From positions 1-23,501 of IMG/VR virus record IMGVR_UViG_3300006101_000070: a stretch of 23,501 bases of DNA. One strand, 5' to 3'. A program made the translations under genes and the position numbers. Shown piece by piece: positions 8,206 through 14,647 of this stretch (positions within the stretch are counted from its first letter, which is position 1; each line of letters opens with the position of its first letter). The notes below the pieces were generated by a model, which did no database searches, had not been told where the DNA came from, and saw nothing but the letters and a program-made list of their open reading frames with translations. This stretch comes from a virus.

Positions 8206-8624
8206 CCCGGCACATCCTCAACTGTCTTGACGATATTGTTGAAATCGTAATTTGTTGAACGGGCATCATTACCGCCACTAAATCCAGTTGAACGGTTTTG
8301 AGATCTCGGAACGATACTAAAACTTGTTCCATTAACTTCTAGGGCAGACTTAGCCTCGCCGGTTTTTGCAACGTAATTTGACTGCGAAAGAGTACCGATA
8401 ACGATTACTTTGTCACCCTTACGCAAGTTATCCTGAACGAGATCAGATTTTGAGTTCCAGAACGTAACTCGGAACCAAAGTGTTTCGCCATCTTCCCATT
8501 GACCGTTGACCTTTTTGCGAGGCGTATGAGCCAGCGAGAATGTCGAAAGAGTTTCATCTCGTACTGTTTTTAACTCAGGGTCAGAGCCGAGGTTGCCTTC
8601 AATCGTGATTTGATTTACTGCCAT
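8199..8624 (-). CDS. ssb: Single-stranded DNA-binding protein
   Basis: The 141-residue product has a bacterial-type SSB OB fold over about residues 1-105: ITIEGNLGSDPELK, ETLWFRVTFWNSKSDLVQDN, then LRKGDKVIVIGTLSQSNY. A short Ser/Gly/Asn-rich linker follows. It coats single-stranded DNA in replication and recombination. The end, VEDVPGW, is acidic and hydrophobic but not the usual DDDIPF interaction tip, so its partners may differ from those of the host SSB. The ATG has AGAAAGGCAAAC upstream, and a TGTAATCT promoter-like box lies 30 bases away, at the stop of the HNH gene. Confidence 0.93.
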   Translation of the reverse strand: MAVNQITIEGNLGSDPELKTVRDETLSTFSLAHTPRKKVNGQWEDGETLWFRVTFWNSKSDLVQDNLRKGDKVIVIGTLSQSNYVAKTGEAKSALEVNGTSFSIVPRSQNRSTGFSGGNDARSTNYDFNNIVKTVEDVPGW

Positions 8625-13373: not shown

Positions 13374-14168
13374 TTACGATTTGAACCTTAAATCCTTGAC
13401 GATTTCCTTCACCGAATCGGGCATTGGAACGCCCTCTCGAATGTCGGCAGGGCTGAACCTAGGTGGTAGGGGCGTAGGGGTGGTGATAATGGCTCTGGAA
13501 CCGGCTAGGAGCCGTTTTTCAGGTAGCGGAGCATCCAGCCACCGGTCGCCATTCAGCCAAGTCGAAGGATGAGCCGTGAAAGCAGGGTCACGATTAGGAT
13601 CTCGAGCATATCTTTCAACCCCTTCGATAATAATTTGACGCGATGCGCGCTTAATTGCCTTTGCCCAAGATTTCAGAGCGGTCGCCTTTCCGACTTTTAT
13701 CGGGTAGGTAGCCCAGAAAAGGTCGAAGGTATATATATCTTCTTTATCTTTATCTTTATCTTTATGGTTGAACGTTCGTTCAACGTCCGTTGAATCTAAT
13801 TCATCATCTCGTTGAACGGTCGTTGAACGGTCGTTGATTTCACGCTTAGTCGCAGACTTTTTACCAGCCATCGAAGCCTGTTCAGACTTCTCCCGGACTT
13901 TCGCAAGATCATTTTCGACCCTTGCGTGTGTCCAGATATCGCCATCGACCCAAAAAAACTCGGCAAGGATTTCTCGATTATCTTCCCATTCTTCAAGAGT
14001 CATGCGAGCCACGAAAGCGAGCCGGTTCCCGGAGTTGTCTAAGGGTTTCCCTCTCTGCCAGTAATTCATCAGCAAGAGCAGGTACGCCCCATTCTGAGCC
14101 GCGTTCAAGTGAGCCGTGTCGGCTAGGTAATCGCTGACATAAAGTTGCATATACGGTAATGAACTCAT
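13374..14168 (-). CDS. DUF1376-family replication protein with an internal iteron-like region
   Basis: The 264-residue product begins with a DUF1376 (YdaU-like) domain: YMQLYVSDYLADTAHLNAAQ and NGAYLLLLMNYWQRG. These proteins are linked to phage replication initiation or primosome loading. After a charged linker with NHKDKDKDKEDIY comes FDLFWATYPIKVGKATALKS, then TAHPSTWLNGDRWLD, a C-terminal domain also seen in phage replication proteins. The linker DNA holds 11-bp repeats whose phase does not match codons, beside an AT-rich tract (13731-13843). That is similar in layout to the lambda O gene, which contains its own origin. It starts in an ATGA overlap with the WhiB gene. No helicase or DnaC loader is seen nearby. 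Confidence 0.85.
   Translation of the reverse strand: MSSLPYMQLYVSDYLADTAHLNAAQNGAYLLLLMNYWQRGKPLDNSGNRLAFVARMTLEEWEDNREILAEFFWVDGDIWTHARVENDLAKVREKSEQASMAGKKSATKREINDRSTTVQRDDELDSTDVERTFNHKDKDKDKEDIYTFDLFWATYPIKVGKATALKSWAKAIKRASRQIIIEGVERYARDPNRDPAFTAHPSTWLNGDRWLDAPLPEKRLLAGSRAIITTPTPLPPRFSPADIREGVPMPDSVKEIVKDLRFKS
13731..13843. repeat. Iteron-like 11-bp repeats beside an AT-rich tract (candidate origin)
   Basis: On the plus strand, repeats related to GTTGAACGGTC begin at 13767, 13778, 13789, 13811, 13822 and 13833, all in one 11-bp register. GTTGAACGGTC occurs exactly twice in tandem at 13811-13832. GTTGAACGTTC and GTTCAACGTCC form an inverted pair at 13767-13788. The degenerate register at 13800 fills the gap. 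Immediately left is a G-free tract, 13731-13765, with ATATATAT and four exact CTTTAT copies (13742-13765). Eleven is not a multiple of three, so the repeat is not a protein repeat. Iterons plus a melting region suggest an origin or regulatory site. Confidence 0.6.
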
Positions 14169-14647
14169 ACGTTCCCCATCGCTTCGTTAATCATTGTTTC
14201 GGTAATTCCATAAACGGCAAAATCTTTGAGCACCTTTGTTTTGAGATCAGATTTTCTTGGTGACAATAGTGCTCGCCTTTCTTCGGTAGTCATTCCACCC
14301 CATACGCCGTAATTTTCATGGTGCGCTCCATAATTTAGGCACTGCTTCCAAATAGGGCAAGGGATACAGGTAAATCGAAAAACATCTATGCCGACCACCG
14401 CCCGCACGTTTTTTTCCTCAATCTTAAAAAACATATCCGGCGGCAAAGTTTTGCACGCGGCGTTTTTCCATTTGATTTCGGAGTATTGCGGATTGGCATA
14501 ATGGTCAAAAAGAGCGTCGAGTTGATACCGGTCGAATGTCCTATCCTCGAACATGACGACCTCGTATTTATCGGCAAGCCTTTTTACGGTTCGCTCGCTT
14601 ACTCCATATCTATCTGAAGCAGTTTTCAACGAGATTTTGACGGACAC
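14165..14647 (-). CDS. WhiB-family Fe-S regulator with N-terminal HTH
   Basis: The 160-residue product ends in a WhiB domain: AACKTLPPDMFF (Cys65), FTCIPCPIWKQCLNYG (Cys94, 97, 103) and GVWGG (114-118), followed by MTTEERRALL. The four Cys should bind a 4Fe-4S cluster, and the G[VI]WGG turn usually contacts the sigma factor. This family is essentially confined to Actinobacteria and their phages and is the main host clue. Residues 5-50 form an extra HTH, LKTASDRYGVSERTVKRLA, that could bind DNA directly. It starts with GTG at 14647 and overlaps the Cas4-like gene by 22 bases. It likely redirects host RNA polymerase or controls phage genes. Confidence 0.88.
   Translation of the reverse strand: MSVKISLKTASDRYGVSERTVKRLADKYEVVMFEDRTFDRYQLDALFDHYANPQYSEIKWKNAACKTLPPDMFFKIEEKNVRAVVGIDVFRFTCIPCPIWKQCLNYGAHHENYGVWGGMTTEERRALLSPRKSDLKTKVLKDFAVYGITETMINEAMGNV

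Follow-up and report, generated by a model that had tools for sequence, protein, structure and literature searches.

The window analysed here is a stretch of 23 501 nucleotides of viral DNA (IMG/VR record IMGVR_UViG_3300006101_000070). Almost all of its genes lie on the minus strand, portal and terminase genes can be identified, and Pfam finds an amidase, RusA, WhiB and a PD-(D/E)XK nuclease besides a DUF1376 protein. The DUF1376 gene (13374..14168, minus strand; 264 aa) belongs to a family of unknown function that is common in phages and prophages, and for which our results propose a function, that of a replication initiator. The match to the family (PF07120; E-value 1.9e-21) covers residues 5-89 and scores 76.7 bits, against a curated cut-off of 30.1. 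Among PHROGs, the protein matches a primosomal protein (E-value 1.8e-48) and a replication initiation protein (E-value 2.8e-20), the latter match falling on its C-terminal half. We recognised no helicase or loader gene next to this gene in the window; in isolated phages the order is regulators, a DUF1376-type gene and then a DnaC-like loader or a DnaB-like helicase, resembling the cro-cII-O-P order of lambda (e.g. in Rac-SA53 and the Pseudomonas fluorescens phage UFJF_PfDIW6). Directly upstream of the initiator gene (14165-14647, minus strand) is a gene for a WhiB-type protein that is extended at its N terminus by ~60 residues, and the presence of the WhiB-type protein suggests an actinobacterial host.

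The AlphaFold2 model of the DUF1376 protein consists, in order, of a winged helix (residues 11-80), a long helix (residues 82-114), a disordered linker and a helical C-terminal domain. The winged-helix domain (aa 5-89 by the Pfam match; 13902..14156, minus strand) is modelled as helices plus a hairpin with pLDDT >90, and pLDDT drops from 93 to 54 along the long helix. The C-terminal domain (aa 143-206; 13551..13742, minus strand) is a proposed contact for a helicase or its loader, and its relatives in tblastn searches are actinophage and lactococcal replication initiators. Structural similarities of the model are all of a size that common folds could explain: Z 4.5 over 60 residues between the C-terminal domain and SPP1 G39P (1no1), Z 7.0 for the winged helix of ORC2, and Z 5.3-6.1 for the N-terminal domain of a staphylococcal plasmid RepA (4pql: Z 6.1, rmsd 2.7, 73 residues; 4pt7: Z 5.9; a second model, Z 5.1), a range in which common winged-helix folds are indistinguishable. 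Sequence searches of the PDB gave no credible relative of the window protein, and Foldseek alone gave nothing below an E-value of 0.5.

The linker of this protein is encoded, ~300 bp into the coding region, by an array of six GTTSAAC-type pseudo-palindromes (13767..13839), which we propose to be iterons: GTTGAAC (13767..13773), GTTCAAC (13778..13784), GTTGAAT (13789..13795), GTTGAAC (13811..13817), GTTGAAC (13822..13828) and a degenerate GTTGATT (13833..13839). The six repeat starts listed in a first-pass annotation of this DNA are all exact, and TRF reports an 11-bp array at 13809-13837 (2.6 copies, 100%) and a second one at 13767-13791 (85%). Two points had escaped that annotation: each unit is itself palindromic (CGTT-S-AACG, with a free central base), the sites being 7-bp pseudo-palindromes of consensus CGTTSAACG with dyads spaced 11 bp; and, since exactly 22 bp lie between the two array halves, the six sites fall into a single register in which only the position at 13800 is blank. 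A LexA-like GAACN4GTTC at 13770 is a by-product of an inverted pair of these sites. Three further GTTGAA sites are found elsewhere in the window (8238-8294), near the end of a single-strand binding protein gene; two GTTGAACG copies there (8254 and 8287) are 33 bp apart, or three 11-bp steps.

The array has a palindromic-array score of 15, and the next best place in the window outside it scores 7. Codon shuffling of the gene gives a maximum of 9, and synonymous recodings have a mean of 7.7 and a maximum of 14 (0/2000 reach 15 in either case). The array therefore cannot be put down to the amino acids alone; codon choice plays a part, in agreement with the earlier argument that an 11-bp period out of codon phase is not a protein repeat. 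Adjoining the array is an AT-rich, strand-asymmetric tract (13731..13765), a proposed unwinding element that codes for (Lys-Asp)n. It had been described as a 35-bp G-free tract with four CTTTAT units, and indeed it has no G on the plus strand and TRF finds (TCTTTA)4.2 at 13741-13765; this repeat, unlike the 11-bp one, is in codon phase (Lys-Asp dipeptides). An AT-rich stretch adjoining the repeats is a feature of in-gene iteron origins, and it is observed both in the window and across 118 genes, in which the 60 bp following the array have an AT content of 0.60 and 0.58, vs ~0.50 elsewhere. A GC-skew switch near 13.8 kb, which the first-pass annotation had put forward as a check, is absent from the window, a result of little weight because the window genes run nearly all in one direction and the record is a fragment. 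Homologues have a small rise in GC skew downstream of the array (0.032, se 0.010; 59 loci), from loci too little independent for it to carry weight.

A protein-based collection of homologues, reduced at 80% identity, comprised 79 genes. Compared with 1000 windows of other ORFs, the DNA of 74 homologue linkers has autocorrelation peaks at lags 11, 22, 33 and 44 (z of 24, 19, 9 and 6, respectively). The first-pass annotation had asked whether the register persists while codons change, and it does: amino acids, linker length and even the position of the array vary, and the 11-bp register stays. For example, in Pseudomonas phage PfAn1 (L203) and two other loci (L353 and L362) the array is inside the region coding for the DUF1376 domain, not the linker, with the register kept. 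When all 64 possible palindrome arms were tried, strong arrays were found at period 11 in 28 of the 79 genes and at periods 9, 10, 12, 13 and 14 in none. All 28 are in the 65.7 kb of DUF1376 genes and none in the surrounding 487 kb; arrays thus go with the gene itself and not with the DNA around it. The array is a common rule, not a universal one, since homologues without it exist: a confident array is absent from about one-fifth of the collected genes, and no significant array was found in Rac ydaU, phiKX2, phPA-G, KEN_02 and MooMoo. The DUF1376 genes of phPA-G and KEN_02 (L633 and L636), which have no array of a known class, encode GKKGGR at the place of the class peptide described below, with an AT-hook-like GGRPRK in the phPA-G version.

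Genes of this kind are also reached from DNA alone. A blind scan of IMG/VR viral contigs for three GTTSAAC sites at 11 bp, with no protein reference, gave at least 120 loci, and among the matches listed 91 of 120 are inside ORFs with a DUF1376-like domain. Pfam assigns 83 of 115 ORFs, again among the matches listed, to DUF1376 and 20 to Lin1244_N; other ORFs that were scanned match a PHROG replication initiation protein, a DnaD-like helicase loader or a replisome organizer. Controls behave differently: sites spaced 10 bp apart yielded 12 loci (none in DUF1376), and sites spaced 12 bp apart at least 120, with 10 of 120 among the matches listed in DUF1376-like ORFs. The 12-bp loci probably stem from protein repeats, since this spacing equals four codons. 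The rearranged motif CTTSAAG at 11 bp gave 12 loci, one of them again in a DUF1376-like gene. Scans with two related motifs gave at least 120 loci for GCAWTGC (70 of 120 among the matches listed in DUF1376-like ORFs) and 65 loci for GCTNAGC (16 in DUF1376-like ORFs). The array ORFs outside the DUF1376-like set, where scanned, are mostly Lin1244_N, or belong to the three PHROG functions named above.

The arrays, which hold 3 to 9 sites, fall into three motif classes, GTTNAAC, GCTNAGC and GCAWTGC, and a change of class alters the two palindrome arms jointly. Among 296 confident genes, arms determined de novo are GTT (188), GCA (66), GCT (41) and other (1), proportions that are biased because part of the set was retrieved by motif. 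Just after the winged helix, and not within it, are the protein columns that tell most about class; they fall in the predicted long helix, where the window protein has AGKKSATKR (aa 101-109; 13842..13868, minus strand). Genes of the GTT class encode AGKxSAxxR, and the GCA-class version is about four residues shorter and ends in SAxxRW; the model of a GCA-class member has the same domain plan. Among the matches listed, AGK is found around 87 blind GTT arrays (one of them also with RW), whereas around blind GCA arrays RW is found 88 times and AGK never. ORFs outside DUF1376 follow the same rule (12 to 0 for GTT, 27 to 0 for GCA). The GCT class is less clean, with varying peptides of GG or ASA types. 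Judged from the sequences, then, motif class can be predicted, also across Pfam families, from a short peptide that follows the winged helix.

We mapped class on a tree of the DUF1376 domain built without the peptide columns. Motif class changes ~31 times on this tree, which is poorly resolved. Out of 17 independent GCA/GTT pairs 15 are as expected and none is opposite (p 6e-5); only four of the pairs are on well supported branches, and for these four the expected direction is seen in nearly every pairing. One concern is that peptide and array are a single recombination module swapped among phages, their association being linkage and not recognition, which would touch the claim of specificity and not that of an origin. 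The two are less than ~200 bp apart in most genes, and phage initiators are mosaic; but two Pfam families that differ in their upstream domains both obey the rule, as do genes whose array lies inside the domain, ahead of the peptide (L203, L345, L353, L362 and L398), and we consider linkage an unlikely explanation, if one still to be reckoned with.

The 7-bp pseudo-palindrome with a shared central base is the geometry read by the basic helices of eukaryotic bZIP proteins (e.g. the AP-1 site TGASTCA). This likeness raises a possibility that we put forward tentatively, as conceivable rather than probable: a portable DNA-reading helix may be common to different phage initiator families (DUF1376, Lin1244_N and perhaps others), with AGKxSAxxR reading GTTNAAC, SAxxRW reading GCAWTGC and the GG/ASA-type variants reading GCTNAGC. 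Such a code would be bZIP-like recognition in phage origins, with its specificity switched many times within one family.

In-gene replication origins are already known, and four systems can be compared with the window gene. In phage lambda the origin is inside gene O, with four iterons at 39034-39118 (PMC7466680). Like the window gene, lambda O carries its own iterons mid-gene beside an AT-rich tract, but its iterons measure 18 bp and are spaced by 20 to 24 bp, vs the 11-bp spacing in the window (PMC7466680); moreover, gene O has no 11-bp array, and a Pfam scan of the window protein gave no match to the O family. The winged-helix N-terminal domain of pSK41 RepA binds boxes central in rep, the linker is coded by the origin, and a separate C-terminal domain follows (PMC5703833). 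The window gene shares this layout of winged-helix domain, array-coded linker and separate C-terminal domain; however, iterons, spacing and peptide differ, the C-terminal domain of pSK41 RepA binds DnaG (PMC5703833), and the Pfam scan assigned the window protein to DUF1376 only, not RepA_N (PF06970). Mycobacteriophage RepA (e.g. of Miko) is an initiator necessary and sufficient for prophage replication, and its authors suspect that the origin is inside the gene or shortly before it but report no repeats there (PMC7157519); relatives of the window C-terminal domain are likewise annotated as RepA-like replication initiators. The fourth system is ydaU of the E. coli Rac prophage (DUF1376, primosomal protein I), whose N-terminal domain is homologous to that of the window protein (46.5% identity). 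It carries an AGKASVQAR peptide and precedes ydaV, whose annotation is putative replication protein, but unlike the window gene it has no significant 11-bp array despite the right peptide.

Multiple regularly spaced repeats are found inside a proposed initiator gene; the layout matches that of lambda O and pSK41 rep, where boxes in the gene are bound by the N-terminal domain, and AT content rises after the array, the place to expect an unwinding element. On these grounds we read the array as very probably the iteron part of a phage replication origin inside the gene of its own initiator, bound by the DUF1376 product. The protein would bind the sites probably as one dimer per 7-bp pseudo-palindrome, the half-sites being read by the basic end of the long helix (AGKxSAxxR). 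Dimers one helical turn apart would align along the DNA and could open the AT-rich tract next to the array, with a helicase or its loader perhaps recruited by the C-terminal domain.

The sites could instead be operators by which the protein controls its own gene, with replication starting elsewhere. Sites in a protein's own gene fit autoregulation as well, and the rule linking peptide to motif points to recognition rather than to use as an origin. But the sites are ~300 bp within the coding region rather than at a promoter, they are followed by the AT-rich tract, and both the number of sites per array (3 to 9) and the likeness to lambda O and pSK41 favour an origin, so that operators seem improbable. 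Even less probable is binding by another protein, either a host factor or a phage repressor: the LexA-like match would suggest one, were it not a product of the inverted site pair, and across the ~31 changes on the domain tree the motif class goes with a peptide encoded by the gene itself, also where the array precedes this peptide, and likewise in a second Pfam family. Selection for a charged linker at the protein level, or tandem slippage, is suggested by the low complexity of the linker and by the neighbouring 6-bp repeat in codon phase, but can hardly be entertained for an 11-bp repeat that is out of codon phase, exceeds every synonymous recoding, keeps its register while amino acids change and has palindrome arms that co-change between classes.

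In the literature searched, with most subscription papers outside it, we did not find an 11-bp pseudo-palindrome array spread over initiator families in three classes with a class-predicting peptide. Titles and abstracts joining DUF1376 with replication included none on a DUF1376 origin, and we found no paper on Lin1244 together with phage, with subscription work mostly uncovered in both cases. If the array is an origin, sequence by itself places the likely origin within ~100 bp in hundreds of uncultured phages, the rule from peptide to motif is a simple and testable prediction, and a protein code and an iteron code would overlap on the same DNA in a widespread group of genes.

A few arrays differ from those described above. 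The replication initiation gene of Arthrobacter phage Coral (L637, NC_048099), kin of the window protein in the C-terminal domain only, has ~22-bp tandem repeats of GGGGTGCCAACCTGGACCAAAC type in its middle (~1420-1500). Several genes (L485, L489, L495 and similar) have 11-bp GCTNAGC arrays and neither a DUF1376 domain nor an obvious class peptide; PHROGs assign L485 to DnaD-like helicase loaders. The 11-bp CTTSAAG array found in a DUF1376-like gene (L649, 1035-1062) is possibly a rare further motif class. The DUF1376 gene of Acinetobacter phage AB3P2 (L635; 1495-2238) has CGANTCG sites on an 11-bp register, perhaps another class, with an array score of 10 vs a shuffled maximum of 9.
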